Assembly: GCA_017962275.1 (NCBI GenBank)
Contig: JAGCVQ010000012.1
Span: forward strand, 1-40,015
Direction: 5' to 3'
Source of the DNA: Bacteroidales bacterium
Lineage (GTDB): Bacteria; Bacteroidota; Bacteroidia; Bacteroidales; WCHB1-69
Length of the DNA stretch: 40,015 nt
The notes under the pieces were generated by a model. It did not search any database and had not been told where the DNA came from. It was given only the letters and a program-made list of their open reading frames with translations. The position numbers were made by a program, and so were the translations under genes. Numbering within the stretch: the stretch's first letter is position 1; every line of letters starts with the position of its first letter. Shown here one piece after another: positions 6,799 to 39,681 of the stretch.

Positions 6799-6850
6799 TC
6801 TAACGTCCCGTATTTGTCGAGACGGTGTGCACATCGTTTCGACAAGAGCA

Positions 6851-6886
6851 AAAAAAACGCTCCGACCAACATCGGAGCGTTTTTTT
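6851..6886. terminator. Bidirectional intrinsic terminator
   Basis: A perfect stem pairs A-run plus ACGCTCCGA (6851-6865) with TCGGAGCGT plus T-run (6872-6886) around a 6-nt loop. The seven-base A and T tracts make it work on both strands, ending glyA from the left and the central operon (last gene ends at 6942) from the right. Confidence 0.92.
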
Positions 6887-6941
6887 GCATCTCAATAGTC
6901 CCGACGGATGGATACCACTGCCGAAACCACTAAATGATTGT

Positions 6942-8834
6942 TTATTTGATTTTATAATTAAACTGAATCGTTGGGGTTTTGGATGCGGGTTCATAATATG
7001 CGCCCAGACACCATTTTTTGTACTTCGACTGCCGGGCAACATTCACGGATCCGCGAATAAGCGTATAGAGGACATCGCTCACGTAAATAACAGCGGCCAC
7101 GCCTGCTAAAGCGTATGATGTGTAATAGAAGGCCCGTTTAGTCTGTCCATTTTTCATATCAGCAAACGAATCCTTATTGTATTTGCCGAAATTGAAGTAA
7201 TTTCCCCAGTCCATATTGTTATGGACATTCAAAGGATTATCATGCAACGACCAATAGCGTAAACCAATAGATGCACCCAAGCTCCCGAAGAAGAAGAGCG
7301 TAGTGCCTATACCCAGATGTTCGCCGTAAGTTACCCGATGGCGTCCCAAGCCAGGGATTATCATGGAGAGGAAAACGTTCGCGGGGCCACCCGTACCGTT
7401 GTATTTTACGAGATTGAACCCGGAACGAGAATATTTGTCCACCGAAACAACCGTGTTTTGGAGAAAGAATTTGCCATATAGGAACTTCTTCACTCCGGAA
7501 CGCAACACCAATGTCTTCACTGTGTCTTCTGTCTTTACGAGAAAATCATAGACATCGTTCGAGTTCAACACCAAAGGATCCATTTTGAGCTTGCGCCTTG
7601 TCGATTTGCGGGTAACCTTTATAATCTCACTCTCCACACTGATAATGAAATCGTACGTAGCCCTCGCATTGACTTTCTGTCCATAATAGATGGGGGCAGG
7701 GAAACGTATGGCGGCTTTCTCCAATTCAGCCAAAAGGGCATTCTGCAACACGGTATCCGTGGTTCCTGCTTGATGGACACTCGCTTTCGATCGACCGTCT
7801 GGCATGATGAAGAAACTGACCGTCAACGTGTCAGTCGGCACATTGTTCAAACGAAGCAAACCAGTCTCAATCACATCCAAAATCTGGGGCTGAAACTGCT
7901 CGTAAGCAGCGGTATTGTCGGCCAACTCTGCATAGTCAAAAACGGTTTCGTTTGCGGAGATGATACGTTCCAAGGTGTCTATGCGATGACGCCAATGGAT
8001 GGTCCCTCTTTTCCATTGCAACGTGTCGGACAGCTCGACAGCCATCTCCAGTTCGTCTTTGGCCATTTCCCACTCGTTTGCCTTATAGTATTCGTCAGCT
8101 TGCGCCACAAATTCGAACATCTGCTGTACAGACTGAAGATAGTCTATCTTATTCTCCATATTGATAATGGCATTCTCATCAAGAAGGTTGTTTTCCACAC
8201 CGTATCTCTTCACCTGCTCGTATGCGGAAAGGGCACTGTTAATCTCAGCGTTGTTTTCGAGCCTCTTGGCCTCAGCCAACAGTTTGTTGTATTGAAGCTG
8301 CTGGTTGCGTTCTATCTTTGATTCGAAAACCTTTATAACGTCCTCTCCCATCTGCAATTCCTTGCCATAGGCCACAACAGTCTGGTAAAGGTCAACAGCG
8401 CATTCGTAGTCCTTGTCCCGGGCGCACTTCATGGCTTGCTCCTCGGTCGCATAGAAACGTTTTACCTTAAGGGAGTCGTGTTTCACGATGACATTGACGA
8501 TGGTGTCTATGTTCACGTGGGTCTCCACAATCGTATCCACCTTCACCACAATGGAGGCGACATCCACATTGCTTTTGGCCTTGGTAGAGACAACAGGCTT
8601 GAATTCTTTCAGCATATTTTTGGCTGATTTCCGGCAATTCTCGGGATTGCTCGAGTCATCAATGATATTCCGCAATTGCTCTCGAGCCGCATCAAGCTGT
8701 TTCTTGTCCTTTGATTTTTTGTACTTGTCGTACAACTTGCCTGCTGACTGTATTCGATCGGAACAGTCCTGGGCGTAAACGGTACACATTGGCACGCAAA
8801 ACGCCATCAATAAAATAAAAACGATTTTCTTCAT
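6942..8834 (-). CDS. Secreted multi-domain protein: TPR-like, TonB-C-like and C-terminal membrane region
   Basis: This 630-residue protein is the last gene of the central operon. It has a signal peptide (MKKIVFILLM..., cleavage after V-Y-A at residue 21). Residues about 25-300 are charged and helical with TPR-like repeats (for example around 130-160, 190-215, 245-275). Residues about 333-401 look like a TonB-type C-terminal domain: T-V-S-F-F-I-M-P-D-G-R followed by L-L-A-E-L-E-K-A-A-I-R-F-P-A-P and G-Q-K-V-N-A-R. The C-terminal third has hydrophobic segments at about 485-495, 505-525 and 570-592, including L-S-M-I-I-P-G-L-G, which recalls DUF5683-type membrane proteins. I infer an envelope scaffold or sensor that links periplasmic and membrane partners of the kinase operon. 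The domain assignments rest on motif resemblance only, and the function is unknown. Confidence 0.7.
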   Translation of the reverse strand: MKKIVFILLMAFCVPMCTVYAQDCSDRIQSAGKLYDKYKKSKDKKQLDAAREQLRNIIDDSSNPENCRKSAKNMLKEFKPVVSTKAKSNVDVASIVVKVDTIVETHVNIDTIVNVIVKHDSLKVKRFYATEEQAMKCARDKDYECAVDLYQTVVAYGKELQMGEDVIKVFESKIERNQQLQYNKLLAEAKRLENNAEINSALSAYEQVKRYGVENNLLDENAIINMENKIDYLQSVQQMFEFVAQADEYYKANEWEMAKDELEMAVELSDTLQWKRGTIHWRHRIDTLERIISANETVFDYAELADNTAAYEQFQPQILDVIETGLLRLNNVPTDTLTVSFFIMPDGRSKASVHQAGTTDTVLQNALLAELEKAAIRFPAPIYYGQKVNARATYDFIISVESEIIKVTRKSTRRKLKMDPLVLNSNDVYDFLVKTEDTVKTLVLRSGVKKFLYGKFFLQNTVVSVDKYSRSGFNLVKYNGTGGPANVFLSMIIPGLGRHRVTYGEHLGIGTTLFFFGSLGASIGLRYWSLHDNPLNVHNNMDWGNYFNFGKYNKDSFADMKNGQTKRAFYYTSYALAGVAAVIYVSDVLYTLIRGSVNVARQSKYKKWCLGAYYEPASKTPTIQFNYKIK

Positions 8835-8855
8835 ATTACTATTATCTATTAACTA
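8835..8855. repeat. Three heptamers at a stop codon (TTAACTA/TTATCTA/ATTACTA)
   Basis: On the minus strand the stop codon of the upstream kinase starts the series TAGTTAA-TAGATAA-TAGTAAT, and the spacer ends 19 bases later at the start of the next gene. Period 7 and the TAG content match the other arrays, but the copies are degenerate. Confidence 0.55.
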
Positions 8856-10256
8856 ATTTTCAGATATGTAGATATATTGTATCGAATCGATAAGTGCGTT
8901 GACTTCGCTTGTATTGTTGATGTTCTTGGCGAATTTGAGGTAGTCGAGAACATTCAGGCGGATACCGTCTTCGAGGAAGGCGGCGGAGAAGTCGCGCTTG
9001 GCGCATTGGAGGCAATAGTCGTACATCTGGCCGCGCATTGCGTTGATGCTGTCAGGATAGTGGGACTCACGGAACTCGGGGTTTTGGCGGAGTTGCGCAC
9101 TGTCGAACATATCAATGGCCTGTTTGAACTTGTCAAGCTGCCCTTGGGTGTTGTCCATGCCTTGTTGGTAGAACTGGACTCCGCGGCGGTAGAAAGCCAT
9201 CGTTTCGTCATATTGCTGTTGTTGCGATGTGCTTTTTTCTCTGCCGGAAAGCGTCATCGCAAGAATGGCGGCAATGGCGACAACAGCCGCTGCCACTATA
9301 CCGATGATGATGAACTTGCGTTTAGAGGTCGAGACTGGCGCAGGCGTCGGCGAAGCTGTGTGGGATTCTATATGGATGGAAGACCCGAAGGAACCGCCGT
9401 AAGAACCGGATGTGTGAATTGATCCCGACGAGTAGGGGATTTGTGCCAGATGGAGAGCGGCGAACTGCTCCAAATCGGTGGCGAGAGGACGGGCTGTGGG
9501 ATCGGGCAGCAGGCACTGCATGATAATCTGTTTCAAATCGTCGGAGAAACTATCCGGCAGGGGCGGAATTTCCGCACCTTGAAGCTGTGCCTCGCCGCCT
9601 TGACCGCCGAAAGGCAGGCGCCCCGTGAGCATCTCGTAGAGGGATGCCCCCAATGCCCAAATATCGCTGGCCACCAAGGGAATCTGGTCGCGACGGAATT
9701 TCTCGGGCGGCATATACGGGCGTGTGCCTTGCACCGTCGATACACCACCTTCACCACCCTCGCCTAAAATGCTGCGTGCCTTGCCGCTGATGCCGAAATC
9801 GGTGATGATGTAGCTGTTGCCGTCCAACAGCACGTTCGCGGGCTTGATGTCTTGGTGGATGATGGGCGGTTGGTGTTCGTGCATGCAGGACAGTCCTGCT
9901 GCCACGTCGTGCAGGAACTGCCACGCCTTTCGCTCGCTGCAGTTGCCTAAGAGATCCTCGGCGGAACCTGAATTGTAGTAAGGCATCACTAAGTAAGGAT
10001 GACCCACGCAAACACCGAAGTAGGTGTATTTCAACAGGTTGGGATGATTGAGGTTGTAGACTAAGGCGAACTCTTGACGGAACATCTCAATGCCCGACTC
10101 GTCAAGTTGTGAGGAAGGCAGGAACACTTTCAGCACCAGGGTGATCTTTGCGGAGGTGTCATCCACGAGCCACACTTCCGAGAACCCGCCTTCGCCTAAT
10201 TTCTTCCGCAGCCGGTATCGGCCGTCAAACAGGAAATCTTGCTGCAATTTTGACAT
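8853..10256 (-). CDS. Transmembrane Ser/Thr protein kinase (HQD type), copy B
   Basis: This is a 467-residue eukaryotic-like (Hanks-type) kinase. Residues about 14-270 carry the Gly-loop G-E-G-G-F-S-E-V-W (21-29), the ATP lysine K43, the catalytic loop H-Q-D-I-K-P-A-N (134-141; D136, K138, N141), D-F-G (153-155) and the substrate loop G-T-R-P-Y-M-P-P-E-K (177-186). The HRD arginine is Gln, so it belongs to the non-RD class. A Ser/Gly-rich linker (275-311) leads to one TM helix (about 315-337) and a periplasmic tail of about 130 residues. The tail contains a helical, TPR-like pattern (M-A-F-Y-R-R-G-V-Q-F-Y-Q-Q-G) and could be the sensing part. It is clearly paralogous to the kinase just upstream, with the same residue numbering through the catalytic core and a gap of only 10 bases. 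It probably phosphorylates FHA or zinc-ribbon partners in this operon (inference). Confidence 0.93.
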   Translation of the reverse strand: MSKLQQDFLFDGRYRLRKKLGEGGFSEVWLVDDTSAKITLVLKVFLPSSQLDESGIEMFRQEFALVYNLNHPNLLKYTYFGVCVGHPYLVMPYYNSGSAEDLLGNCSERKAWQFLHDVAAGLSCMHEHQPPIIHQDIKPANVLLDGNSYIITDFGISGKARSILGEGGEGGVSTVQGTRPYMPPEKFRRDQIPLVASDIWALGASLYEMLTGRLPFGGQGGEAQLQGAEIPPLPDSFSDDLKQIIMQCLLPDPTARPLATDLEQFAALHLAQIPYSSGSIHTSGSYGGSFGSSIHIESHTASPTPAPVSTSKRKFIIIGIVAAAVVAIAAILAMTLSGREKSTSQQQQYDETMAFYRRGVQFYQQGMDNTQGQLDKFKQAIDMFDSAQLRQNPEFRESHYPDSINAMRGQMYDYCLQCAKRDFSAAFLEDGIRLNVLDYLKFAKNINNTSEVNALIDSIQYIYISEN

Positions 10257-10266
10257 AATTATTAAC

Positions 10267-11517
10267 TTATTGTTGTTTTCCAGAAACTATCATTTCGTTT
10301 GTATGCTGCATAAAGAACTCGCTCTCACTTACTTCATCCGCTTCATTGTCATCCTCCAAGTCAGCACCCTTTGGTGTTACTTCCCGATTGTTATCTTTCT
10401 TGCGGCGCGTATTCGTATAAGTGACGGCCTTTTCCAAATTCCTGCCACTTAGCAAAGAATCGACTTTAGTAGTATCACTATTCGACGCGGTGTCGGCAAT
10501 CGTTCCCTTGCCTTGGTGATTGAACAGGAAGATGGTAAAAAACACGACCAAGGCAATCCCGATGACACTGACAGCGGCAATCATAAGTATCGAGAGCTTT
10601 TTTTTGCCTTCTTTGGGTGGATAACCACCACTATTTGGTGGATAAGACAAGGGATCTTGAGAATAATAGAGGGGACTGACCCGAGAATCCGTTGGCGGTG
10701 AGGGCGGATTCTTGACCATCTTGTCAGCATATAACGCCAGTTCCTTAGCCGTTGGGCGGTGACCAGGATTGGACGAGAGGCACTTCCTAACCGCATAACG
10801 CAGCTCGTTAGAGAACGAGGCCGGAAGCTTGGGGCATTCAAGCACCTCGAGTTGCTTTTCACCGCCTTCGATTCCAAACGGCAACTCGCCGGTCAGCAGC
10901 TCATAAAGCGAAGCCCCCAACGACCAGATGTCATTCTCCGGATAAATCTCCGGATTCTCGAGATATTTCTCTGGCGGCATATAGGGCCGGGTTCCCTGGA
11001 CAACCTTGTTGTCGCTGGACCCCTTGACCAGATTGTACATGCCCGCACTGATGCCGAAATCGGTGATGATGAAGTTTTCGCTATCAAGCAACACGTTAGC
11101 GGGCTTGATGTCCTGATGGATGATGGCAGGACGTTGTGCATGCAGACGCGCCAATCCGGCTGCCACATCGCGGAGATACTTCCATCCCATCTGCTCTGAG
11201 CAACGGCCAACCATTGACGCTGCCGAACCTAATCTGTAGTAGGGCATTACCAAGTATGGGTAGCCCATACAGACATTGAACTGACTGTACTTTAAGAGAT
11301 TGGGGTGGTTGATGTTATATACCAACTGAAACTCCTTGCGGAAGAGATCCACCACCTTATCATCCAACTGAGCATCGGGAAGGAATATCTTCAGTACCAA
11401 TTCTATATCCCCGACGGTGTCTTGAACCAACCACACTTCCGAATAGCCGCCATCGCCCAGCTTCCGCAAAAGCTGGTAACGACTGTCAAATAGATATCCT
11501 TGTTGTAGTCTTGCCAT
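10267..11517 (-). CDS. Transmembrane Ser/Thr protein kinase (HQD type), copy A
   Basis: This is a 416-residue Hanks-type kinase and a paralogue of the gene downstream. The kinase domain has G-D-G-G-Y-S-E-V-W (21-29), K43, H-Q-D-I-K-P-A-N (134-141), D-F-G (153-155), G-T-R-P-Y-M-P-P-E-K and D-I-W-S-L-G-A-S-L-Y-E-L. As in copy B, the HRD arginine is replaced by Gln. A Pro-rich juxtamembrane linker (about 270-303) precedes one TM helix (about 307-332). The periplasmic tail is about 84 residues, very polar and rich in Asp/Glu and Lys/Arg, and shows no similarity to the copy B tail. The two kinases therefore share a catalytic core but have different external segments, which suggests different inputs or partners. 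It lies 29 bases downstream of the PP2C gene. Confidence 0.93.
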   Translation of the reverse strand: MARLQQGYLFDSRYQLLRKLGDGGYSEVWLVQDTVGDIELVLKIFLPDAQLDDKVVDLFRKEFQLVYNINHPNLLKYSQFNVCMGYPYLVMPYYRLGSAASMVGRCSEQMGWKYLRDVAAGLARLHAQRPAIIHQDIKPANVLLDSENFIITDFGISAGMYNLVKGSSDNKVVQGTRPYMPPEKYLENPEIYPENDIWSLGASLYELLTGELPFGIEGGEKQLEVLECPKLPASFSNELRYAVRKCLSSNPGHRPTAKELALYADKMVKNPPSPPTDSRVSPLYYSQDPLSYPPNSGGYPPKEGKKKLSILMIAAVSVIGIALVVFFTIFLFNHQGKGTIADTASNSDTTKVDSLLSGRNLEKAVTYTNTRRKKDNNREVTPKGADLEDDNEADEVSESEFFMQHTNEMIVSGKQQ

Positions 11518-11546
11518 TATCTTTGATCTTTTGTGTGATTCTCTTT

Positions 11547-13115
11547 CTAATTGGAGTGTTGTTGATTTTTCTGATGCTCTTTCCCAACTCCCTTTTCTTT
11601 TTCCTTTTTCTCCTTTTCCTTTGCTGCTTTATCAAGCAATTTTGTATTATTATTGTTGTTATTACTCTCTTCTTTTTTCCCTGAGTTTTGCGAGGCAGAT
11701 GGATTTGTAGTTGACTTGTTTCGATAATTCGGTACGACACTATTGGTGGTCGCTGTTTCCGTTGGAGAGCCAGCCGTCGCACTTGCCGGACTGCTCCCTG
11801 CAGCCTCCGGATTGGCAGCAGACTGCGCAGTTTGTTGTGTCGCAGGAGCCGCGTTTTGTTGTCGGCCGTAGGAGGCAGCATCGTTGTTTCCTGCACCCAA
11901 AAGAAACTCTCCTTCGATGGTTTCCTGATTCAACGTGTCCTGCGGATTCGGTTTAACTTCAACCTTCTCTTGTGCAGCCTTTTCCTTTTCAGCGCGCTTA
12001 ATCTTGATATTCCGTATCATGAAAAATGCACCGACAGCCAGAGCGGCGACCAATGCCACAGCAAGCAGGGCGATGAGGGTGTCCTTGCGGTCACGTTTTT
12101 TATCGTCCTCTCTGTCAAGAGGAACCGCATCCGGAATGGGTGGGGCTGACGTGTTGCTTTCACTGGTCTGTAACGCCTTGGGCTTTTTCTTTGCCTCCGG
12201 GCGTTTGGGGCCGGCTTTCACCTGACAGAGCAGTGTGGTGACATTGTCGTGCCATCCAGCAGCGGCACAGGCAGTCCATAATTCGTTGATTCCGTCCATA
12301 AGATGGTCGGCGTCGGGGATATGCTCCTCAATGACATCCTCAATGCAGGAGATATTCTCCAGAATCTTCAGAGAGGGCAGCGCGCCGCACAAACCGTCAC
12401 TGCAGAGCAGGTACAGATCATCCTGATAAACCTCAATAGGACCTTCGATGTCTGGATTTGCCTTTTCCAAAGGATTACCGAGACTGCGGGTGATGATGTT
12501 GTTGTCCGGGTGCACGAATGCCTCCTCTTCGCTTAGGTGGAGCACCTCCATCACGTAGGAATGGTCATGGGAGAGGGTTTGCAAACCGTCGTCGGGAGTA
12601 TAACGATAAAGCCGGCTGTCACCGCACCAGGCGTAGTAGGCGGTGTTGTTGGGCAGCAGCCACAACAGCACCACCGTAGTGCCCATGCCCTCTTTCTCCT
12701 TGTCTTTGGCGGCAGCCTTTTTGATGGCTTCGTCGGCGGCAAGGATGGTCTTGCGGATGAACTTCCGGATGGCGGTATCGGTCATCTCCAGATTCTTCGT
12801 CCCCTCCTCGCTGAAACACTTGGCAAGCGTAGTGACCGCTATTTGGGAGGCCACCTCGCCGGCGTTCATGCCGCCCATGCCGTCGGCTACCACAAGGAGA
12901 CAGCCTTTGTCTCCCATCGTGAGTTTTGCGGAAAGGCCGGTGACATCTCCATAATGGCTCTCCGTGGGGTTGATGGAGTTGTCGCCCTTTTCAAAAGGAC
13001 TGACCGTTTTTGCGCGACCGACTGACGGCACGACGAGGCAGCTGTCCTCGTTCGTGCCGTTGCGGGCCGCTCTGTCGCACTGGGCGGCAATGGTGAGTAT
13101 CGTATTAACGCTCAT
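11547..13115 (-). CDS. Membrane-tethered PP2C-family Ser/Thr phosphatase
   Basis: This 522-residue protein has an N-terminal PPM/PP2C domain (about 1-300) that removes phosphate from Ser/Thr using two metal ions. All key motifs are present: N-E-D (22-24), V-A-D-G-M-G-G (76-82), G-M-G-T-T (143-147), W-C-G-D-S-R-L-Y-R (163-171), S-H-D-H-S, I-T-R-S-L-G, L-C-S-D-G-L (D240) and H-D-N-V-T-T (289-294). A Lys/Pro-rich linker runs to one TM helix (about 346-367). The periplasmic tail (about 155 residues) is low complexity, rich in Ala/Thr/Ser/Asn and ending in Lys/Glu-rich sequence. Most bacterial PP2C enzymes that pair with Hanks kinases are soluble (PrpC/Stp), although PstP of mycobacteria is also TM-anchored. 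It is the likely eraser for the three kinases encoded here. The stop is 2 bases from the upstream gene. Confidence 0.95.
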   Translation of the reverse strand: MSVNTILTIAAQCDRAARNGTNEDSCLVVPSVGRAKTVSPFEKGDNSINPTESHYGDVTGLSAKLTMGDKGCLLVVADGMGGMNAGEVASQIAVTTLAKCFSEEGTKNLEMTDTAIRKFIRKTILAADEAIKKAAAKDKEKEGMGTTVVLLWLLPNNTAYYAWCGDSRLYRYTPDDGLQTLSHDHSYVMEVLHLSEEEAFVHPDNNIITRSLGNPLEKANPDIEGPIEVYQDDLYLLCSDGLCGALPSLKILENISCIEDVIEEHIPDADHLMDGINELWTACAAAGWHDNVTTLLCQVKAGPKRPEAKKKPKALQTSESNTSAPPIPDAVPLDREDDKKRDRKDTLIALLAVALVAALAVGAFFMIRNIKIKRAEKEKAAQEKVEVKPNPQDTLNQETIEGEFLLGAGNNDAASYGRQQNAAPATQQTAQSAANPEAAGSSPASATAGSPTETATTNSVVPNYRNKSTTNPSASQNSGKKEESNNNNNNTKLLDKAAKEKEKKEKEKGVGKEHQKNQQHSN

Positions 13116-13117
13116 TA

Positions 13118-14224
13118 TTACTTTTTACTTGACGATGCACTGGATTTCGCGTTGGACGAGGATCCGGAATTCTTGTCAGACTTATTGGTGGATTTGGAGC
13201 TCTCCTTACTTCCACTCCTATTGCTCTCCTTGGAAGATTTCTTGCCCTTGTCTGACTCCTTGGCCTTAGACTGATTGTTGTCCGGGATGATGCTCTCATC
13301 CGTCTTCTCGGATTCGGGCTGGGCCTCGCTCTTGGCAGGCTTCGAAGACTCCGCCGGTTTCGCTTTCACGGGAGGCGTGGGCTTTGACTGCATCTTCACC
13401 AACTCCCACTTCCCACTTCCGTAAGGGTCGATACGGGCAACGCCCATCAGGGTGAGGTGGAGGCAACCGGGCTCGTCAGCGTTCAGGTTCAGGAAAGCGC
13501 CGCCAATCACCGTTTCCGGGTTGACGGGCTGCCGCACACTGAAAATGGTGTTCTCGTTGAACGTGACATTGGTGGGAACCACATTGTAGCGGGTCTCTCC
13601 GTTCTCGGGGCTCACGTGGAACCAAACCATATAGCCATTCTTGGAACCATCGCCAAGCTCCACACGCAGACCAAGATTCTGAAACGTGGTGTCCGTCACA
13701 TGGAAGAAATCGGGAGCCAGTTTCTCGTCCGTTATCTTGTTCAAAGCAAAGGGCATATAGTGGGTATCGTTAGCCTTCTTATACTCAAGTTTATCGATTG
13801 ACACCAGATCGTCACCATATTTGTTGGCATCATACTTGGGATCAACCTTCCAAGGTTTAAGGAAACGGTTATCGACACCGAAACCGTAGGGAAGCAGCGG
13901 GGCCACGCCATAGACCGCGCTAAAGAAGTCCGTACCCGAAACATTGGAACCGCTTTCTCTATCACGCACATTATAACTGGCTTTTACCACCAGAAATGCG
14001 TTGTCAATTGCCTTACGCAGGATGGCATACTCGCCATCCGATGTTGCGCTGGACGGGGTGACGGAGGTGACTTCGATGTCGGTGGCGGCCTTGTCGGTCT
14101 TTTCCTTGCTTTCCTGCTCCGTTTTGTCTTTCTTGACGCTCTTCCGGAAGTTGGGCACTTCACTCTGGGCACTGCCAATTAAAACAGCAGTGGCCAGCAA
14201 CAAAACCAAACTTATCCTTTTCAT
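13118..14224 (-). CDS. Secreted protein with Lys/Ser-rich C-terminal tail, unknown function
   Basis: I do not recognise a family for this 368-residue protein. A Sec signal peptide is clear (MKRISLVLLLATAVLIGSAQ, cleavage near residue 19-20). A charged linker (about 25-60) precedes a globular region (about 63-282) with mixed alpha/beta character and several aromatic G-x-x-P-Y or D-P-Y-G patterns. The last about 85 residues are almost only Ser, Lys, Pro, Glu and Asn. Such a basic, disordered tail could bind peptidoglycan, DNA or acidic proteins, but no known motif is visible. The gene lies between the FHA-protease and PP2C genes (gaps of 15 and 2 bases), so it is almost certainly co-transcribed. 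It could be a periplasmic substrate or regulator of the membrane protease. That role is inferred from context only. Confidence 0.7.
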   Translation of the reverse strand: MKRISLVLLLATAVLIGSAQSEVPNFRKSVKKDKTEQESKEKTDKAATDIEVTSVTPSSATSDGEYAILRKAIDNAFLVVKASYNVRDRESGSNVSGTDFFSAVYGVAPLLPYGFGVDNRFLKPWKVDPKYDANKYGDDLVSIDKLEYKKANDTHYMPFALNKITDEKLAPDFFHVTDTTFQNLGLRVELGDGSKNGYMVWFHVSPENGETRYNVVPTNVTFNENTIFSVRQPVNPETVIGGAFLNLNADEPGCLHLTLMGVARIDPYGSGKWELVKMQSKPTPPVKAKPAESSKPAKSEAQPESEKTDESIIPDNNQSKAKESDKGKKSSKESNRSGSKESSKSTNKSDKNSGSSSNAKSSASSSKK

Positions 14225-14239
14225 ATCGCATCGGTTTTA

Positions 14240-15763
14240 TTAGTGAACAATGGTGGAGAAGGGCACGATACTGCCACTGCTGCGGCCGTGTCTGGTTGAG
14301 ACCAATCCGACGACATAATAATTATTACCATCCTTATAGAACACGGGGCCGCCGCTGTTGCCGGGCTCGAAGTTGGCACCGGTGACCGGAATCACATTGT
14401 GCAGCAGACCGTCATTGGACGTGGTGGCGTAGGTGTATTGCGGACGGATGTCGTTGTTGTCGCTTCCTGTGCCATTCGGGAATCCGAGGACCTCCAGACG
14501 GGTGCCGGCAGGAATAGACTTGGAAAGTTGCGGGTTGGGTTGAATGGCACTGCTGCGGTTGATGCGTCTGTAGGCATAGTCGCTGCCGTTGGCTAGATAG
14601 ATGTTCAAGCCGTCACCAATGTCGTATTTGACATCATTCTTGCTGACCACACTGAAATCGGAATAATTCATCACTATTTTGTCGCCAATATTGTTAACAG
14701 CCTCAATGGTGGCATCGACTCTGCCGCCGTAATGGATCAGAAGGTTGGCCAAAATGAAAGCGGCTGTTTTCTCCTCGTCTGCAAGGTTGGCGTAATAAGC
14801 CCACGGCTCAACCACGTGGCGGGCGGTGTAGAAATAACCGTCGCTGGTGACAAAGCCGGTGGCAATCGGAGCCTCATCATCCTTGAAATAGTACTCCCAA
14901 CGACCATCGGGATACTCATCCGAGATCAGGTCGTAAGCCGTGGTTCCTTCGTCGCATTTGAACACCAATTTCGTCATTTTCATGAAATAGACGTTTGACT
15001 CAAAAGGTTTCAACATACCACCATAGTCCACTTTGGAATTCTTTGAGCCTTGGACGTTGGCATGTCCGCCACTCCCACTGCCACGACTGGCCAGGTAGGC
15101 AATATTTTTCTTAAGGGAGGCGATCTCTTCATCCGCAGCTCTCTTATCTGCGGCAGCTTGTACTTTGACCTCGCCTAACTCCGCCTGGGTGAGTTTCGTC
15201 TCCTTGTTGGCCAGCACCAGCCCGGTGACAAGACCTGCGACGGCGAGGCAGAAGAGGATGGTGAGCAGGGTAAGAGCCGTCTTGTACGGGCGGAGGGCCT
15301 GCTGGCGGAAGAGGTTCAGACGGGCGGTCATACCGATGGATTTCACCAAGGACTGGTCGCCTTGAGGAACGATGAAGCCGAGGCGCGGACCGTTGTAGGA
15401 AAGCTGGATTTCGTCGCCGTTCTGCAGGAGCTGCTCTCCCATCACGCGCTGACCGTTCACAAACGTGTCGTTGGTGTTGCTGCGGTGGATGAGCTTCCAT
15501 TGATCGCCCACGCGCGTGATGACGGCGTGCTCGCGGCTCACCGTGCCGAATTGTTCGTCGATGAGCACTTGGCACTTCTTGTCGCGCCCGATGAACACCT
15601 CATCGACAATCAGCTTCTGCTGCTCGCCGCGACGATGCGTCGCAGAGTCGTCCTTGTGCTCAATGATGAAATAACGTCTGCCTTCCCCGCCAAACACGGA
15701 GCGCACACCGGAGTTAATGGTTCCGGAAACCGTTCTTTTGAATTGAGTCGTTTGATTTGCCAT
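14240..15763 (-). CDS. FHA domain - TM helix - trypsin-like serine protease fusion
   Basis: This 507-residue protein has an N-terminal FHA domain (about 32-132): V-F-I-G-R-D (57-61), V-S-R-E-H-A (75-80) and T-F-V-N-G-Q-R-V (100-107), all expected for phospho-threonine binding. One TM helix (about 163-185) is followed by a short coiled coil (about 190-222), then a chymotrypsin/HtrA-fold protease. H316 in Y-T-A-R-H-V-V and S470 in E-P-G-N-S-G-G-P match the catalytic His and Ser. The Asp is less clear, with D381 in Y-D-I-G-D-G-L a candidate. There is no PDZ domain. The predicted topology puts FHA in the cytosol and the protease in the periplasm, so cytosolic phosphorylation could control proteolysis across the membrane (inference). 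The 126-base gap upstream contains a heptamer array and no TAnnTTTG box. Confidence 0.9.
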   Translation of the reverse strand: MANQTTQFKRTVSGTINSGVRSVFGGEGRRYFIIEHKDDSATHRRGEQQKLIVDEVFIGRDKKCQVLIDEQFGTVSREHAVITRVGDQWKLIHRSNTNDTFVNGQRVMGEQLLQNGDEIQLSYNGPRLGFIVPQGDQSLVKSIGMTARLNLFRQQALRPYKTALTLLTILFCLAVAGLVTGLVLANKETKLTQAELGEVKVQAAADKRAADEEIASLKKNIAYLASRGSGSGGHANVQGSKNSKVDYGGMLKPFESNVYFMKMTKLVFKCDEGTTAYDLISDEYPDGRWEYYFKDDEAPIATGFVTSDGYFYTARHVVEPWAYYANLADEEKTAAFILANLLIHYGGRVDATIEAVNNIGDKIVMNYSDFSVVSKNDVKYDIGDGLNIYLANGSDYAYRRINRSSAIQPNPQLSKSIPAGTRLEVLGFPNGTGSDNNDIRPQYTYATTSNDGLLHNVIPVTGANFEPGNSGGPVFYKDGNNYYVVGLVSTRHGRSSGSIVPFSTIVH

Positions 15764-15822
15764 AACTTATGAATTTAAAATAATGATATGTTGATTTGTC
15801 TTGATACTATCTTGGAAAACAG

Positions 15823-15871
15823 AGATTTGTGGTTTGTGACTTGTGATTTGTGAGGTGTGAATTATGAATTG
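15823..15871. repeat. Heptamer array, 7 x TGAnTTG (degenerate)
   Basis: Seven consecutive 7-mers (AGATTTG, TGGTTTG, TGACTTG, TGATTTG, TGAGGTG, TGAATTA, TGAATTG) fill the intergenic space after the kinase-FHA stop codon (15890-15892). In sense orientation they read CAAnTCA. The unit differs from the GTTAGCA family, but the period and the 3' placement are the same. Confidence 0.85.
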
Positions 15872-15889
15872 TAATTTCCTGCTGCCTGA

Positions 15890-17185
15890 TCAAGACACAC
15901 CCTCCACTCTTATCTTGACTTCACCAATCGAAATAATATCTCCTGCTTTGAGTTCCACGCCTTCCATACCCTTGATTTCGCGGGAATTGATGTATGTGCC
16001 GTTAAGGGAGTTCTCCCATTTGCCATCAACGAACTGTCCGTCGCGCAAGTACCAACTCCGCCGCATTGGGTTATACTCCAGCGTGAAGTGCCGCCGTGAA
16101 ATGTAATTCGTGTTGAAGTCCTTGATGCAGATGTCGTTCGTGATATGCTTGCTGAAACGCCCGCCCGTGACCAAATAGGTCCCGTTATTCAGGAAATCAT
16201 TGAGGTTGTAACAAGTGCCGTGTTCTTCACCTTGCGTCACCTTCAGCAAAAGTCCGCGAGTAATGTCGGTGTTGAAATTGACAACAGGCACGACACGTGG
16301 CTCCAAATCGTGACATTGGGGAACATGCGCCAAAACCTCGTCCACACTCTGGTAACGTTTCTCATAGTCGGGCTGGAGACAACCCTCCAAAATGGTTTCC
16401 CATTGGCGTAGATGGGGTTTCATGCGAAATTTGTCCCGGTTCCACTGTCCTGCCACAGCCTTGTCGATGTAAGGTTGCAAATCTGATTCGCCATCCAGTT
16501 TTCCGAACGGGAGCTCATGGAAGAGGATTTCGTAGAGAACCACACCGAACGAGAAAATGTCGGTGGTGGGCAGCACCGTGGCCTTGGCTTTCTTGGGGCG
16601 AGTCTGCTCGGGTGCCATATAGGCGAAAGTTCCGAAGATATCCACCTTGTTGAGGAGTTTCTTCCAGAAAGGGATGGCTGAGATGGCGCCGGCGGTCCCG
16701 AAATCGGAGAGTGCCACTTTGCCGTCACTTTTCACCAGGATGTTCTCAGGTTTGAGGTCGCGGTGAACCTTCCCGTTCCGATGCAACGCCTGCAACCCGT
16801 AAAGAATCTGACAAGCGATTCGCTCGTAATTGGGGGAGCCTTTTTCCACGAGATTGTAAAGGTTACCCTTCTGGCAGAACTCCATCACGATGCAGGGATT
16901 TCCCTTAACTTGGTCATATTCAATGGAATGCACTAAATAAGGACTGTCAATGCGGCCGGTCTCGAACTCCATCCTGAAACGTTGCACTAACTCCGCCTTT
17001 TCCTCGTTGGTACGTTTCCACAAAGGCAGAATCTTCATAGCGTAGGGCTGGTTGTCTTGGGCACTCAATACCTTGAGCACCAGTCCGAAGCTTCCCTCGC
17101 CCAGTGCTTTTTCCATACGGTAGCGACTGTTGACGTACTCGCCCTGCTTGAAGTCGCATTTTTCCCCAAAGTAGTTCTCGGCCAT
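15890..17185 (-). CDS. Soluble Ser/Thr protein kinase with C-terminal FHA domain
   Basis: This is a 431-residue cytoplasmic protein with no TM helix. The kinase domain (about 22-290) has G-E-G-S-F-G-L-V (29-36), the ATP lysine K51, canonical H-R-D-L-K-P-E-N (141-148), D-F-G (161-163) and G-T-F-A-Y-M-A-P-E-Q (185-194). It is therefore an RD-type kinase, unlike the two membrane kinases downstream. The C-terminal FHA domain (about 310-430) has I-S-R-R-H-F (362-367) and L-N-G-T-Y-I-N-S (394-401), and G-R is present in V-T-G-G-R-F. The FHA half should dock phospho-threonine partners or the kinase's own phosphorylated activation loop. Kinase-FHA fusions are known but less common than separate proteins. 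It follows the zinc-ribbon/FHA gene after 11 bases, so the pair may form one signalling unit. Confidence 0.94.
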   Translation of the reverse strand: MAENYFGEKCDFKQGEYVNSRYRMEKALGEGSFGLVLKVLSAQDNQPYAMKILPLWKRTNEEKAELVQRFRMEFETGRIDSPYLVHSIEYDQVKGNPCIVMEFCQKGNLYNLVEKGSPNYERIACQILYGLQALHRNGKVHRDLKPENILVKSDGKVALSDFGTAGAISAIPFWKKLLNKVDIFGTFAYMAPEQTRPKKAKATVLPTTDIFSFGVVLYEILFHELPFGKLDGESDLQPYIDKAVAGQWNRDKFRMKPHLRQWETILEGCLQPDYEKRYQSVDEVLAHVPQCHDLEPRVVPVVNFNTDITRGLLLKVTQGEEHGTCYNLNDFLNNGTYLVTGGRFSKHITNDICIKDFNTNYISRRHFTLEYNPMRRSWYLRDGQFVDGKWENSLNGTYINSREIKGMEGVELKAGDIISIGEVKIRVEGVS

Positions 17186-17196
17186 GGCTTGATAGA

Positions 17197-18081
17197 TTAT
17201 TTGGTGGAGAATTCGAATTCACGGTCTCCCATAGCCACGATGTCGCCGTTTTGGAGTTCCGTTTTTTTAGTCACCCGGATATAGGTGGTCTTATAGGCAC
17301 TCTTGTCTTCTATATACCATTTCCCATTCTCGAAAGTGAGCACTGCCTGCTGTTGTGAGGTGATGCTGAGGTTTTCCGGGTCTGTGTTCTGACGGTTGAG
17401 AACGACCTTGGGGCTTTCGAAATCGCGCTTGGCGGGCACCGCTGTCGTCTCCCCGTCACGAGCAAGGGGTTTCAACGAGCAGAACGGGATGACCACAGGT
17501 TCTGTTTCTTGGGCCGGCTGGTTTTGCTGCACTTGTCGGATGTTGACGGTCTTTTTGTTGACACCGCTGCCCTGATACCCAGGCGACACGAATCGCTCGG
17601 TCTTCTTGGCGGAAGCCCCCTGGTCGGGTTGTTGCACTTTCCCTTCGCTATCTCCGGGGTACACAAAACGTTCCGTCTTCTTGGGCGAGGAACTGCCTTG
17701 GTCGGGAGCTACGAACCGTTCGGTCACTTTCGGACTTGCACCCTGCATCTGCTGGGCGGGGTTGCTGATGACCACTGTTTTTTTCGCATCGTCAGCAGGA
17801 GACGGAGAAGGCGGATTAGGGGCGCCACCCACAGGACGGTGGCATTTGGGGCACACCTGCGTGCCCGGCAGCAGCGGATAGCCGCAGTCGTGCAACGTCA
17901 CGCCGCCGGCAGCCGGTTCGTCGTGACGGGTCTCCATCCGCATGGTCTTCTTGTCATCATCAACAACGTTTTCTCGTGAAGCCACGGGAGCCGCCTGACG
18001 GTTTTCTCTCAACGGCGACCCGCATCTGCTACAGAAAGCGGCGTCGTCGGCATTGTTCAGTCCACAGAATTTACATATCAT
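17197..18081 (-). CDS. Zinc-ribbon protein with repeated KKT motifs and divergent C-terminal FHA domain
   Basis: This is a 294-residue predicted cytoplasmic protein. A four-Cys zinc ribbon (C3, C6, C17, C20) starts it. A second, incomplete ribbon follows (H64/C66...C77, C80). The low-complexity middle (about 40-185) contains six threonines in a repeated context, K-K-T or K-V-T followed by three residues and mostly ending in F, I or M: T46, T102, T120, T136, T161 and T178. Three of these read T-E-R-F-V. This suits a multi-site kinase substrate whose phospho-threonines are read by FHA domains (inference). The C-terminal 80 residues look like an FHA fold (K-V-V-L-N-R; S-I-T-S-Q-Q-Q-A-V-L; T-T-Y-I-R-V; L-Q-N-G-D-I-V-A-M-G), but the Gly-Arg and Ser-x-x-His pThr-binding residues are not conserved. 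It is probably a phospho-regulated adaptor. Confidence 0.85.
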   Translation of the reverse strand: MICKFCGLNNADDAAFCSRCGSPLRENRQAAPVASRENVVDDDKKTMRMETRHDEPAAGGVTLHDCGYPLLPGTQVCPKCHRPVGGAPNPPSPSPADDAKKTVVISNPAQQMQGASPKVTERFVAPDQGSSSPKKTERFVYPGDSEGKVQQPDQGASAKKTERFVSPGYQGSGVNKKTVNIRQVQQNQPAQETEPVVIPFCSLKPLARDGETTAVPAKRDFESPKVVLNRQNTDPENLSITSQQQAVLTFENGKWYIEDKSAYKTTYIRVTKKTELQNGDIVAMGDREFEFSTK

Positions 18082-18089
18082 AGTCGTGT

Positions 18090-18668
18090 CTATTTTATTG
18101 TCACATTGTTAATTACATACTCACGTGCACCGATTCTGTCCTGTACGCTGGAGGATTTCATCTGACGTGTGTCCCCATAAAGGAAACAGTTTTTCCATGT
18201 TGTCGCACCATCGGCGGCGAAGTAAAAAGGAAGGAAAATCGTGCGACTGAAATTGAGGTAGTACTGCTCGTCGCCAAACCAGTAAACCGTAATGGACTTT
18301 CGTGGACGGAGCCGCTGACTGCCATTCGTGTAACGGTTTTGGAAGATGCGCTTGAGCATGTCCACTTCAGAAGCTGCAAGCACCGAGCAACGGTCGATGT
18401 AGTCGAGAAGTTCCTTGGCTTCTTCCCATTCCGTACGGTCAGTGATTTGCACAGCATCGAACACCTTGCCATCCTGGTTCACCCCGCCCCGGATGTAAAT
18501 CACAAATTCGTCCTGATTACCCAGCTGCTTCAGTGCCTCGTCAATTACAGCCGACACATAGCCGCCGTCGGTGTGGTCACCAAGGTTCACGCAGAAGAAC
18601 ACAAATTGTTGTGAACTTGCCGTAAAGCCGGCCATAAGCATCATTATCAATAGTAGAGTCTTTCGCAT
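18090..18668 (-). CDS. Small secreted protein, unknown function
   Basis: This is a 192-residue protein with a signal peptide (MRKTLLLIMMLMAGFTASSQ, cleavage near residue 19). I do not recognise the mature protein. It starts with a hydrophobic strand and an acidic loop (F-V-F-F-C-V-N-L-G-D-H-T-D-G-G), then a helix (V-I-D-E-A-L-K-Q-L) and another strand (E-F-V-I-Y-I-R-G-G). This alternation is loosely like an alpha/beta Rossmann or vWA fold, but no complete MIDAS motif (DxSxS) can be seen. Two internal cysteines (mature part) could form a disulfide. It lies between the barrel gene and the zinc-ribbon/FHA gene, with gaps of 12 and 8 bases. Location in the periplasm is likely, and the role is unknown. 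Confidence 0.7.
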   Translation of the reverse strand: MRKTLLLIMMLMAGFTASSQQFVFFCVNLGDHTDGGYVSAVIDEALKQLGNQDEFVIYIRGGVNQDGKVFDAVQITDRTEWEEAKELLDYIDRCSVLAASEVDMLKRIFQNRYTNGSQRLRPRKSITVYWFGDEQYYLNFSRTIFLPFYFAADGATTWKNCFLYGDTRQMKSSSVQDRIGAREYVINNVTIK

Positions 18669-18680
18669 GACTGTTCAGGT

Positions 18681-20243
18681 TTAGAAGTTGTACAACAATT
18701 TGGCTTGGCATTCGATAAACAGAGGCGGACGGGCGGTGAGATTCCGCAGCGCAGAGTTAAATGTTTCCGAATCAGGGGAGAGGCTGTAGTCGCGAATGTC
18801 GTTAAGCCACACCTGCGGTTTGTCGAGCAGACGGTAACGGCAGCCCACAGAAAGCTCCGCCGACCAGCGTTTGTCGGCAGTGAAGAAGTATTGCGCCCCT
18901 ACACGCACGAGAGCGTCGAGGTGCCAACGAACTGTCGAACGGCTCTTGTCATACAGCCCTTTCACATCGAACCTGCCGAAATCGTAATAGCCGTTCTGGT
19001 CGATAAAGACATTGAAATATTCGGGACCGTATTGTCCTGCATAGCAGGCATCAAAAGAGGCCTTCGAGGCACCGAACAGAAAAGCGCTGCCGCGTACGCC
19101 AACGGCCGCGAACAAGGAGAGGTCGGGAATCACAAAATAGTCGTAACGAAATAGGACAGGCACCGATAACTCCAAACCGTGACATTTCTCCAAAATACTG
19201 TCCAGACAAGTAATGCGGGTATAGGTGTCACCGGAAGCATCCACGGTCTCGCGCGACTCCTGATAGGATTGCAGATAAAGCCGTTGCCAATCAATGTCCA
19301 TCGAGATGCCCGTTTCCAGAGAGACACGGTGGCGGTTGCGGGCGAAAAGTTGCCGCTGATACACCGCCCCGATGTGGAGTGCGCGCTCGCGATAAAACGG
19401 AGAGGAGAAGTAGCGACCATGGTCTGTCGGAGCGGAAACGTTGCTGCCCAGCGCCTGCGCATAGCCCATCTCTATGCCAACGGCGTTCTTCACCGTTGAA
19501 ACGGAAATGGTGTGGTGTTGCAGGGGGAGTGTCTGTGCCTCGAAATCGTAGTTGTAAGTAGCGCAGCTCTTGCCCGACAAACGAGTGTAAACCTCAGTCG
19601 ATAAGGGGAGGACACGTTCGTCAAGGCGGATATATGAGCCGTCGATGTCCTTGACTTTCAAGGTCTTGGGAATATACAACGCTTTGTCGTATTTGATGTA
19701 GTTGGCCGAAATATGCGGATGCATGCGGCGGTCAGGATGCAAGCACTCAATGCGGTTGATTCGGGCCACCTTCGATGTGATATTGTAAACGACATACAAT
19801 ACAAGCGGGGTCACTACCGGTTTGTCATCGCTCGGAACACTGTACTGCTTGGTCATTTCCACCGTGTATTCCATCACGCTGTCCTTCACACCCTGGTAAT
19901 TGATGCGCACGTCCGAAATCCCGAATTGCGTGAACGTGCCCTGCTGCCGTGAGTAGAAATCACAGTAGTTGGCCAGATTGGTGGTGTCCTTGCGGTTGGC
20001 GTTGTTGAACCAGTTGATGTGATCCATATAAACATTGGTGTACTGGCTCTCGAAGAGGTTGCAGAACGTGCTGGACTTCTGTGCATATCGTTCGGTGAGG
20101 TCGGCGTTGGCAAGGTAGGATTCCACCAACTCATACACTTTCTGATTGGCGTCCATCGTCTCCCTGACTGTTTGCGCTGTACAAATGGTGACAGCACAGA
20201 AAGACAACATTAAATAGGCTATTGCTCGGCTCGTCATCCTCAT
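18681..20243 (-). CDS. Predicted outer-membrane beta-barrel protein
   Basis: This 520-residue protein has a signal peptide ending in C-T-A-Q (cleavage near residue 23). The N-terminal domain (about 25-235) is soluble and rich in Tyr and Asn with several short beta segments. From about 240 the sequence shows the alternating pattern of an outer-membrane barrel: V-G-I-E-M-G-Y-A-Q, R-A-L-H-I-G-A-V-Y-Q-R-Q-L-F, V-S-L-E-T-G-I-S-M-D-I, A-L-V-R-V-G-A-Q-Y-F-F-T-A and S-A-E-L-S-V-G-C-R-Y-R-L. The protein ends in F, as outer-membrane proteins often do. The start codon overlaps the stop of the upstream T9SS gene by ATGA, showing translational coupling. A second in-frame ATG lies two codons in. It could anchor or receive the T9SS protein encoded just upstream (inference). 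Confidence 0.75.
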   Translation of the reverse strand: MRMTSRAIAYLMLSFCAVTICTAQTVRETMDANQKVYELVESYLANADLTERYAQKSSTFCNLFESQYTNVYMDHINWFNNANRKDTTNLANYCDFYSRQQGTFTQFGISDVRINYQGVKDSVMEYTVEMTKQYSVPSDDKPVVTPLVLYVVYNITSKVARINRIECLHPDRRMHPHISANYIKYDKALYIPKTLKVKDIDGSYIRLDERVLPLSTEVYTRLSGKSCATYNYDFEAQTLPLQHHTISVSTVKNAVGIEMGYAQALGSNVSAPTDHGRYFSSPFYRERALHIGAVYQRQLFARNRHRVSLETGISMDIDWQRLYLQSYQESRETVDASGDTYTRITCLDSILEKCHGLELSVPVLFRYDYFVIPDLSLFAAVGVRGSAFLFGASKASFDACYAGQYGPEYFNVFIDQNGYYDFGRFDVKGLYDKSRSTVRWHLDALVRVGAQYFFTADKRWSAELSVGCRYRLLDKPQVWLNDIRDYSLSPDSETFNSALRNLTARPPLFIECQAKLLYNF

Positions 20244-21415
20244 AGTGCGCGTAAGATTTTAGTGGTGTGACGTTTTTCGCCGGATTGCACGCTTAAAAGA
20301 TATGCGCCTCCTGGGTAAGTAAACGGGAACTGACGGCGGATGACAGGTTCGGAGCCGAGAATCCATTGGGCCACTGTTCTGCCTGCGATGTCATACAGCG
20401 TGGCCGTGAGTTGCTCCGCTGCCGGATTGTCCACCTGAAGCAGCAGCTTGTCATCTCGCATACAAGCTATTATGTGAAATGATTGATGCTGGTCAATGCC
20501 GGTTGCAGTCTCTTCTCCAAAATAGGACCTGTTCCGGCAAACAACATCGCCATGGAAAAGACAGGTTTCCACCCAGTATTGGAACGAAACCGTGTCAATG
20601 GTATTGTACTGGTAATAGTTGAAATCCCAGGCATCGTCAGCATTTTCCTCGTATGTTTGCTTGTCGGTTAGCCCCCAGCGGTAATGAACTATTCCTGCAG
20701 GATCCTCTATATCGCTGCATACCAGTATATTGGAATTTGATTTTCGAAGGACTTGGGCTCTATCCGGCGATGATTCCTCACACACATGTACAACGAGGGT
20801 AGTGTCGGCGATAATGCAGTGGTGCTCACTATCCACGATTCGCATCCCGACCGTGACCGTACTAAGGCTTTCATCACCGACATTCCAAACAATCGAGGAT
20901 TGATTGGTGCCCATCGGCTGTTCCGGCACAAAATACCACAAATACCAATAACGATCGAAATCGTCGCCGATGGGATAGGAGAAAGTGGCACGCTGTCCGT
21001 GACAGACGAGCGTGTCGCCGGTAATGGCATGCATGGGAAGTGGCGGAATGATGGTTAGGTGAAGTGTCACAACGCTATCGCATCCGTTAGATGCTGGATA
21101 ACGCCCCACTTCGTAGTCACCTGATAACGTGTAAGTCTGCCCTTGATATTCGTAGGAGATGCAAGCCGTGTCATAAAGATTGGTGTGGACGCTGAAGTTG
21201 AAATGGAGTGTCAATATATAAAATGTGTCACGACCCTCCTCATGGGTCTCCAAATGCGTGACAACCGTGTCGCTGTAATACTCGGTACCGAACAAAAAGA
21301 TACTGTCACATGCGATCTCGGACTGATACAACGTATCCGTAGGATTCGCGGAAACCGAAAAGAATGTGGCAAACAGTAAAGAAAGGGTGACGAGTAAACG
21401 ATTATTCATAGGCAA
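20240..21415 (-). CDS. Secreted T9SS type A sorting-domain protein, first gene of the kinase operon
   Basis: This 391-residue protein has a signal peptide (cleavage after S-V-S-A, residue 23). Two short extracellular repeats in the first 125 residues have a C-D-S-(I/V)-(F/V) core, one with the form N-G-C-D-S-V-V-T-L-H-L-T-I, as in the 911-residue protein. A PKD/Ig-like segment (about 128-220) follows. The final about 75 residues have the pattern of a T9SS type A domain: L-L-L-Q-V-D-N-P, L-Y-D-I-A-G-R-T-V, G-G-A-Y-L-L-S-V-Q-S-G and T-K-I-L-R-A-L. Export by type IX secretion to the cell surface is therefore predicted. The gene heads the operon behind a leader of about 150 nt with a -7-like box at 21572-21579, and overlaps the barrel gene by four bases. 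The ligand is unknown. Confidence 0.83.
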   Translation of the reverse strand: MPMNNRLLVTLSLLFATFFSVSANPTDTLYQSEIACDSIFLFGTEYYSDTVVTHLETHEEGRDTFYILTLHFNFSVHTNLYDTACISYEYQGQTYTLSGDYEVGRYPASNGCDSVVTLHLTIIPPLPMHAITGDTLVCHGQRATFSYPIGDDFDRYWYLWYFVPEQPMGTNQSSIVWNVGDESLSTVTVGMRIVDSEHHCIIADTTLVVHVCEESSPDRAQVLRKSNSNILVCSDIEDPAGIVHYRWGLTDKQTYEENADDAWDFNYYQYNTIDTVSFQYWVETCLFHGDVVCRNRSYFGEETATGIDQHQSFHIIACMRDDKLLLQVDNPAAEQLTATLYDIAGRTVAQWILGSEPVIRRQFPFTYPGGAYLLSVQSGEKRHTTKILRAL

Positions 21416-24352: not shown

Positions 24353-24386
24353 TATCTTTGCCGGTGAAAAACAAAGTGCAAAAATA
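24353..24386. promoter_or_regulatory. Interleaved promoters of dprA (+) and the DUF4837 gene (-)
   Basis: TATCTTTG at 24353-24360 is a plus-strand -7 box for dprA (start 24416). CAAAAATA at 24379-24386 is TATTTTTG on the minus strand for the DUF4837 gene (start 24306). The two boxes point toward each other across about 18 bases, so polymerases starting there would overlap and may interfere. Confidence 0.5.
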
Positions 24387-24415
24387 AAATATTCTTCATA
24401 AACCAAAGGCAAAAA

Positions 24416-39220: not shown

Positions 39221-39253
39221 TAACTGCTAACTACTAACTACTAACTGCTAACT
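39221..39253. repeat. Heptamer array, TAACTGC/TAACTAC
   Basis: TAACTGC, TAACTAC, TAACTAC, TAACTGC and TAACTCA run without a break. The TAG stop of the kinase fragment (39248-39250) is inside the array. The sense reading is GTTAGCA/GTTAGTA, the same unit as at 1951-1985 and 25508-25577. Confidence 0.9.
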
Positions 39254-39490: not shown

Positions 39491-39681
39491 TGTAAATAAC
39501 CACGTTAAAATATACCAAAGTTCCATTGAAAAGTATACCACTTTGGAGACTGCAAAAAGCGTGTTATAAATCATTTCTGATCCATATTAATCATTTTGGG
39601 CTTCTTGTACGTTCCACGGTACTCTTCGGAGAACGTGTCACGAAGGGCTCAAAATGGTAAACTTTTACGTGGTTATTTACA
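39491..39681. mobile_element. 191-bp IS remnant or MITE with 27-bp inverted ends, IS21-like
   Basis: The ends are inverted repeats: TGTAAATAACCACGT at 39491-39505, with its exact complement at 39667-39681. Similarity continues to about 27 bp. The motif AAAA(G)T(A/T)TACCA recurs inside both ends, recalling the multiple terminal repeats of IS21-family elements. TGT/ACA termini and a flanking 4-bp direct repeat CCAT (39487-39490 and 39682-39685) fit a transposition product. There is no transposase. A short start M-I-N-M-D-Q-K-stop near the right end may be the rest of istA. It separates the kinase fragment from a phage gene. Confidence 0.75.

Follow-up and report, generated by a model that had tools for sequence, protein, structure and literature searches.

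Ser/Thr kinase systems of the Bacteroidota seem to be little described. In actinobacteria the PknB/PstP/FhaA/FhaB locus brings a transmembrane (TM) kinase, a TM phosphatase of the PP2C type and FHA proteins together in one operon, and in the threonine phosphorylation pathway of the type VI secretion system (T6SS) TagQRST is an envelope partner. Here we describe an operon of eleven genes from a Bacteroidales bacterium, which is located on contig JAGCVQ010000012.1 (assembly GCA_017962275.1) and encodes Hanks-type kinases, a PP2C phosphatase, FHA proteins and exported proteins. The window analysed is the entire contig of 40,015 bases; the host genome has 2.77 Mb and is 94% complete. The set of genes stands up to analysis, is conserved as a unit and has a patchy distribution. 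Judged from the sequences we favour, with moderate confidence, the view that it forms a self-contained trans-envelope threonine-phosphorylation switch with periplasmic proteolysis as output.

By analogy, the closest known mechanism is the TssW-PpkA-FHA axis of the T6SS. As far as the available part of PMC12607579 reports, the outer-membrane protein TssW, the TM kinase PpkA and an FHA protein work as one axis on the T6SS. The operon shares with this pathway a TM kinase with a periplasmic C-terminus, a PP2C, an FHA protein and a probable outer-membrane partner, and relatives of two of its proteins, a kinase-FHA and a zinc-ribbon FHA, lie beside T6SS-like genes in two genomes. It differs in its FHA-TM-protease fusion, its soluble kinase-FHA, its zinc-ribbon FHA and its two or three kinases, and no T6SS gene was found on the contig. 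The actinobacterial locus is similar in that a TM kinase, a TM-PP2C and FHA proteins stand together in an operon, however here PASTA domains and cell-wall synthesis genes are missing and a protease is fused to FHA. The statement of the earlier note that tss, pbp and division genes are absent holds for the 25 window proteins scanned, none of which belongs to such a family. The KKP modules, as described in the available part of the survey PMC11341870, are similar in that a PP2C and two kinases follow each other (here PP2C, KinB, KinA) and in the existence of a kinase-FHA fusion. In KKP a cold-shock domain marks one kinase and FHA the other, and prophages and other mobile elements carry most of the modules. 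In contrast to what that part describes, the operon has no cold-shock domain, its FHA kinase lies outside the triplet, the triplet kinases and phosphatase all have a TM stretch, and the genes occupy a chromosomal slot, with no match of the FHA-protease in phage or plasmid records. The part of PMC7159879 that was available reports vWA-MoxR conflict systems, Bacteroidota included, with trypsin and FHA domains among the effectors, whereas Pfam finds neither a vWA nor a MoxR ATPase in the operon. In their available parts both this source and PMC12088040 deal with arrangements other than this gene set, and our literature search among open-licence papers found no description of a gene set of this kind.

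The kinases, the phosphatase and the FHA proteins are encoded by the following genes, given in the order of transcription.

17197..18081, minus strand: ZnFHA, with zinc ribbon(s), a linker that looks disordered and repeats KKTERFV-type threonine motifs, and a divergent C-terminal FHA domain; core gene.
15890..17185, minus strand: KinFHA, soluble RD-type Hanks kinase with C-terminal FHA domain; core gene.
14240..15763, minus strand: FHAprot, cytosolic FHA domain, single TM helix at about 160-178, trypsin-like protease in the periplasm; core gene.
11547..13115, minus strand: PP2C, cytosolic phosphatase, TM at about 343, low-complexity periplasmic tail; sole PF13672 match of the genome; core gene.
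10267..11517, minus strand: KinB, TM Hanks kinase (HQD motif) with short periplasmic tail; missing from two of the seven full genus operons.
8853..10256, minus strand: KinA, TM Hanks kinase (HQD motif) with helical-looking periplasmic part; core gene.

Pfam agrees with the earlier reading of three Hanks-type kinases, a PP2C and three FHA proteins fused to a kinase, a TM protease and a zinc ribbon: Pkinase is found in three operon proteins (E 1.9e-42, 1.2e-40 and 1.1e-44), PP2C_2 in one (4.1e-13) and FHA in three (3.9e-15, 2.4e-13 and 8.7e-06). The host genome contains three PF00069, three PF00498 and one PF13672 matches (E <= 0.001; SpoIIE-type phosphatases and atypical kinases lie outside this search). 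All seven are inside the operon, therefore the partners are local.

The protease half of FHAprot matches Trypsin_2 (1.6e-08). Among 21 full-length homologues, a set that excludes the truncated copy of locus L120, the triad H316, D395 and S470 is invariant and in this order; D395 was preferred to D369 as the triad Asp, since the latter position is variable and is Asp in 15 of the 21 homologues. The G-x-S-G motif is nearly as constant (G468 in 20, G471 in all 21), and the FHA residues R60, S76, H79, N98 and N103 are invariant as well. By these residues FHAprot qualifies as a putative S1 protease and FHA phospho-threonine reader. The catalytic loop of KinFHA reads HRD in 21/21, while KinA (10/10) and KinB (5/5) carry HQD in every genus copy read; the KinA of L090, outside the genus, carries HRD. 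Within the genus the ZnFHA linker is a ladder of K-K-T-x-x-F motifs, and threonine after Lys/Arg is enriched at nine of ten genus loci (shuffle p 0.023 or less; 0.39 in L087). In one genus genome (L085 4413-5342, G045) the threonine motif of the linker has recently been expanded in tandem, so that KKTERFV occurs five times in a near-identical unit.

All eleven ORFs lie on the minus strand from 21415 to 6942, just as the earlier note had it. In transcription order the intergenic gaps are -4, 12, 8, 11, 126, 15, 2, 29, 10 and 18 bases, so that nine of ten are 30 bases or less; the -4 gap is the ATGA overlap already noted, at 20240-20243. Two further features belong to the layout.

15764..15889, minus strand: intergenic gap of 126 bases between KinFHA and FHAprot, a possible internal promoter or processing site.
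6845..6895, minus strand: intrinsic terminator hairpin at the operon end, called by folding against shuffles.

These 51 bases fold at -27.3 kcal/mol (shuffle mean -9.9, z -7.1), which bears out the proposed terminator; the hairpin is not among the entries of a simple terminator scan. The promoter-like box suggested for the operon head finds no support. Sigma-70-like matches are at chance (19 found, 14.4 +/- 4.4 expected) and none is listed on the minus strand upstream of 21415, and the sole match in the window to the Bacteroides-type pattern is at 24379-24413. Between 6500 and 22800 no Rfam match reaches the gathering score.

In wider searches the FHAprot profile (E 1e-15 or less) finds relatives in 12 of 393 genomes of the order, from 11 of 206 genera, with a truncated gene in G373; in a draw of 395 genomes from the phylum it finds the own genome and two others. 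Five named contigs with FHAprot relatives come from uncultured Bacteroidales assemblies, one named after red deer and one after water-buffalo reticulum. Two of the five bear RUG, a prefix of rumen genomes. A kinase-FHA profile (1e-60) finds 14 of the 393 order genomes, including all 12 with FHAprot.

Profiles restricted to rows of the seven full genus operons were used to search twelve loci from other genera a second time. Each of the twelve has ZnFHA, KinFHA, PP2C and an FHAprot homologue (KinFHA of L090 being split into two frames), and the gene orders differ, therefore the linkage reflects more than recent common descent. A further kinase is present in ten of the twelve, with none in the stretches of L113 and L118. 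Hydropathy indicates a TM stretch in all twelve PP2C proteins and in eight of the ten further kinases (L115 is cut by the contig end, none was found in L114); the part behind the TM stretch has TPR repeats in L090 and Sel1 repeats in L117. The conserved core is thus ZnFHA, KinFHA, FHAprot, TM-PP2C and usually a second kinase. The distances of the five core proteins correlate with each other (rho 0.58 to 0.80 in 10 pairs, no permutation of 999 as high, species relatedness not removed), and do so without the other-genus loci as well (0.41 to 0.75). The cluster L091 (G032:C133) is of another type: several of its proteins contain FHA-like segments and it includes two kinases and a PP2C, but the FHA-protease has no match there.

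In the host's own genus FHA domains are found in 10 of 40 genomes, and the core cluster was read in nine of them, at ten loci including the window. Seven of the ten keep the order OMB, exp192, ZnFHA, KinFHA, FHAprot, exp368, PP2C, (KinB), KinA, TPRex, with TPRex partial or divergent in L082, L084 and L086. Because this order is conserved the operon is not a chance arrangement. The other three (L081, L083 and L087) are shorter and combine ZnFHA, KinFHA, FHAprot, PP2C and KinA with different neighbours. The test for joint conservation that the earlier note proposed thus has two sides: the genes co-occur wherever they are present, but 31 of the 40 genus genomes lack the cluster. G045 also contains a second FHA protein (L094 3563-8360, G045:C5; 640 aa) near a distant kinase, and these lie outside this family.

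The conserved neighbour DUF4837 is present in 40/40 genus genomes, and fifteen stretches beside it were read, in six of which SHMT lies outside the stretch. CHU275 and SHMT are adjacent without the operon in seven genomes (G002, G006, G009, G010, G012, G013, G050), in two of which one ORF of 232 to 250 aa separates the two genes. In G016 and G020 another gene pair occupies the slot, one member in G016 being DUF5723. In the window, G051, G054 and G055 the slot contains the operon (with the SHMT end visible in the window and G055), and there is a DUF5723 gene beyond TPRex in G054 and G055; in G019, G023 and G045 it is sited elsewhere. The CHU275-SHMT slot (window flanks 5518-6798 and 21728-22555; L124-L132) is a variable site.

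Identity of the five core proteins to the window is 0.69 for G023 and 0.67 for G045, compared with 0.60 for both G051 and G055. The DUF4837 marker reverses this ranking (G023 0.71, G045 0.72, G051 0.82, G055 0.80), and G054 is intermediate (core 0.66, marker 0.82). Such discordance fits block transfer or replacement between lineages; the comparison uses the identity table only, as the trees are poorly resolved, and is not a formal test.

Other genes of the window lie outside the operon. The protein encoded at 2660-5395 is exported and combines an IgGFc_binding domain with a CHU_C tail of the type IX secretion system (T9SS); a homologue of it adjoins SHMT in eight of the nine stretches L124-L132. 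A giant probable surface protein is encoded by a frame of 3715 aa at 25601-36748, in which a T9SS type A tail accompanies twelve fibronectin type III stretches. A LytTR response regulator lies near the contig end (38446-39195), and a short frame at 39248-39574 has no family match but looks, by eye, like the end of a histidine kinase.

The remaining five genes of the operon encode exported proteins.

20240..21415, minus strand: T9ex, exported, with a borderline T9SS type A sorting tail; accessory; TTG start, or ATG six bases on.
18681..20243, minus strand: OMB, exported, with a probable C-terminal outer-membrane barrel; genus-level.
18090..18668, minus strand: exp192, small exported protein; genus-level, in 7/7 full genus operons.
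13118..14224, minus strand: exp368, exported protein.
6942..8834, minus strand: TPRex, exported, carrying helical repeats and a C-terminal part that is hydrophobic; genus-level.

Of the five exported proteins counted in the earlier note, OMB, exp368 and TPRex show a hydrophobic stretch at the N-terminus in simple hydropathy scanning, while the signal peptides of T9ex and exp192 are visible by eye only. The T9SS substrate proposed in the operon is a borderline case, since the type A tail of T9ex scores 25.3 bits in the six-frame genome scan, above the cut-off, but 22.2 bits in the protein scan, just below the 23-bit cut-off. The proposed outer-membrane barrel agrees with the sequence features of OMB, namely a conserved C-terminal Tyr-Asn-Phe and strand-like sequence, but has neither a Pfam barrel match nor a PDB match. 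For exp192 no known family was matched in scans with Pfam and related models; its better PDB sequence matches are viral polymerases (0.001 to 0.009) and were judged not meaningful. A vWA-like fold was one idea considered for this protein. The idea that exp368 is an inactive protease copy, raised by a Pro-Trp stretch and a Gly-rich end shared by eye, was dropped at a probability of only 0.3% in the profile comparison. A TonB-type C-terminal domain in TPRex was likewise rejected, with no Pfam match and no PDB match with a sub-alignment.

The distribution of these genes gives no support to surface display, which the earlier note had inferred, as part of the core of the system. OMB is present in 7/7 full genus operons and T9ex in 3/7, and the profiles of OMB, exp192, T9ex and TPRex have no match in any of the twelve other-genus loci. 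Selected neighbours were scanned at the other loci. In four of the twelve (L090, L113, L122, L123) a MotA/TolQ/ExbB gene adjoins a coiled-coil protein with an N-terminal hydrophobic stretch, BACON-domain proteins are encoded in L112, L114 and L120 and a barrel domain in L114 and L120, and the shorter genus loci L081 and L087 encode Fib_succ_major proteins. As the outer-membrane and surface genes differ by lineage, they look like interchangeable sensors or clients.

We propose that the switch would work in five steps. KinA and KinB would sense with their periplasmic C-terminal parts the state of the adjacently encoded exported or outer-membrane partners. They would then phosphorylate cytosolic threonines, most likely on KinFHA and on the ZnFHA linker, whose composition was described above. 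Non-RD kinases are not known to need activation-loop phosphorylation, and the pairing of HQD (non-RD) TM kinases with an HRD (RD) KinFHA suggests a relay from the TM kinases to KinFHA. The FHA domain of FHAprot may dock on phospho-threonine and thereby gather or re-orient the protease across the inner membrane; the domain fusion with intact FHA and triad residues is the basis for this step. The protease would cleave an envelope substrate, perhaps exp368 or the outer-membrane partner, and the TM-PP2C would reset the switch. Proteolysis as the output is strongly suggested by the domain fusion. The coupling of a phospho-reader to a periplasmic protease in a trans-envelope module, put forward in the earlier note, is thus supported by fusion and conservation as a predicted function. 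By analogy, the switch resembles the PpkA-PppA-Fha pathway, but its target in the protease-bearing loci would be the protease, with no sign so far of a T6SS as target.

Several observations weigh against this switch. The direction of signalling is assumed, and the protease could act upstream. In L120 a stop interrupts the FHAprot gene before the protease half, with the rest of the locus retained. The Ser-x-x-His pattern is missing from the FHA domain of KinFHA in four of 21 homologues. In ZnFHA the Arg is kept in 21/21 and the Ser in 13/21, and Gln replaces the motif His in 17/21, so this FHA domain may lack phospho-threonine binding. Threonine enrichment in the ZnFHA linker reaches p under 0.05 in none of eleven other-genus homologues; it is confined to genus loci, therefore the ladder is a lineage feature. 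With the seven-operon profile exp368 is found in only five of the twelve other-genus loci. Wider profiles find it in eight, but they included rows of L081, L083, L087 and L090 (the exp368 row of L087 by position alone), so that those loci partly scored themselves; the four core families are at 12/12 with either set of profiles.

An alternative to which we grant a smaller though real chance is that the module chiefly controls a secretion or surface apparatus, with the client encoded elsewhere (the T9SS or an unlinked Bacteroidota-type T6SS) and the protease being one component. The 85 T9SS tail matches in the host genome and the four other-genus loci with a channel gene next to a coiled-coil exported protein are in its favour, as are G294 and G309, the two kinase-FHA genomes without an FHA-protease. 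In both, the genes for ZnFHA, KinFHA and a TM kinase lie directly downstream of T6SS-like genes (L140 and L142 in G294, L139 in G309). The TssK-like protein exceeds its cut-off in G309 (24.8 bits versus 23.4) and stays under it in G294 (20.3 bits), and the TssF-like protein is under in both. DUF4280 and M23 are present in G309; further upstream in G294 are DUF4280, a VgrG-like protein, Hcp (PF17642), TssC (PF17541, 1.9e-130) and a ClpV-like AAA protein. However, the KinFHA proteins of both T6SS loci form a divergent branch, as HRD and DFG are lost, the 25 scanned window proteins include no T6SS family, and PF05943 is without a match in the host genome, where PF17541 was not searched. The distinct Bacteroidota pathway of the earlier note therefore stands as a conserved module in a minority of the Bacteroidota genomes searched, but its separateness is qualified by these T6SS-like neighbours. 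In G294 an Ntox46 toxin domain is also found in a DUF4280 protein, and a WG-repeat gene lies next to a second kinase.

A regulator of cell wall or division like the actinobacterial PknB/PstP/FhaA/FhaB with a MarP-like protease appears improbable. It would account for a kinase, TM-PP2C and FHA set with a TM-anchored trypsin-like protease, and a weak MarP-family match exists (0.0048, far below the family cut-off), but PASTA domains and families of cell-wall synthesis or division do not occur among the scanned window proteins, and the presence of FHAprot in only 12 of 393 order genomes does not suggest a housekeeping system. Slightly less probable still is a kinase-phosphatase module of KKP type with an anti-phage or toxin-antitoxin role. 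PP2C, kinase and kinase follow each other in the triplet order sought by the survey, judging from the available part of PMC11341870, the presence of the block is patchy, and the kinases match defence kinase models, as many Hanks kinases would. On the other hand, Pfam finds neither a cold-shock domain nor FHA on KinA and KinB, exported and outer-membrane partners are present, and no integrase or transposase family occurs among the scanned window proteins. Searches of 72,556 plasmid records and 50,697 phage records found no FHAprot relative, nor did a pattern scan of viral contigs at its own sensitivity.

Returning to the proteolytic switch, we tentatively suggest, while regarding it as rather less than even in likelihood, that phospho-threonine binding by the FHA domain might activate the periplasmic protease through one polypeptide. 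The core may then be a plug-in cassette for varied envelope clients (outer-membrane barrels, surface proteins, MotA/TolQ/ExbB-type channels), with a relative wired to the T6SS. If true, signalling would run from the inside out, opposite to the usual outside-in kinase, with the phospho-reader and the periplasmic protease joined in a single molecule. Every PF00069, PF00498 and PF13672 match of the host genome falls in the cassette, so its phospho-network may be studied as one unit, and through the T6SS-linked relatives the exchange of clients by such cassettes could be followed directly in evolution.

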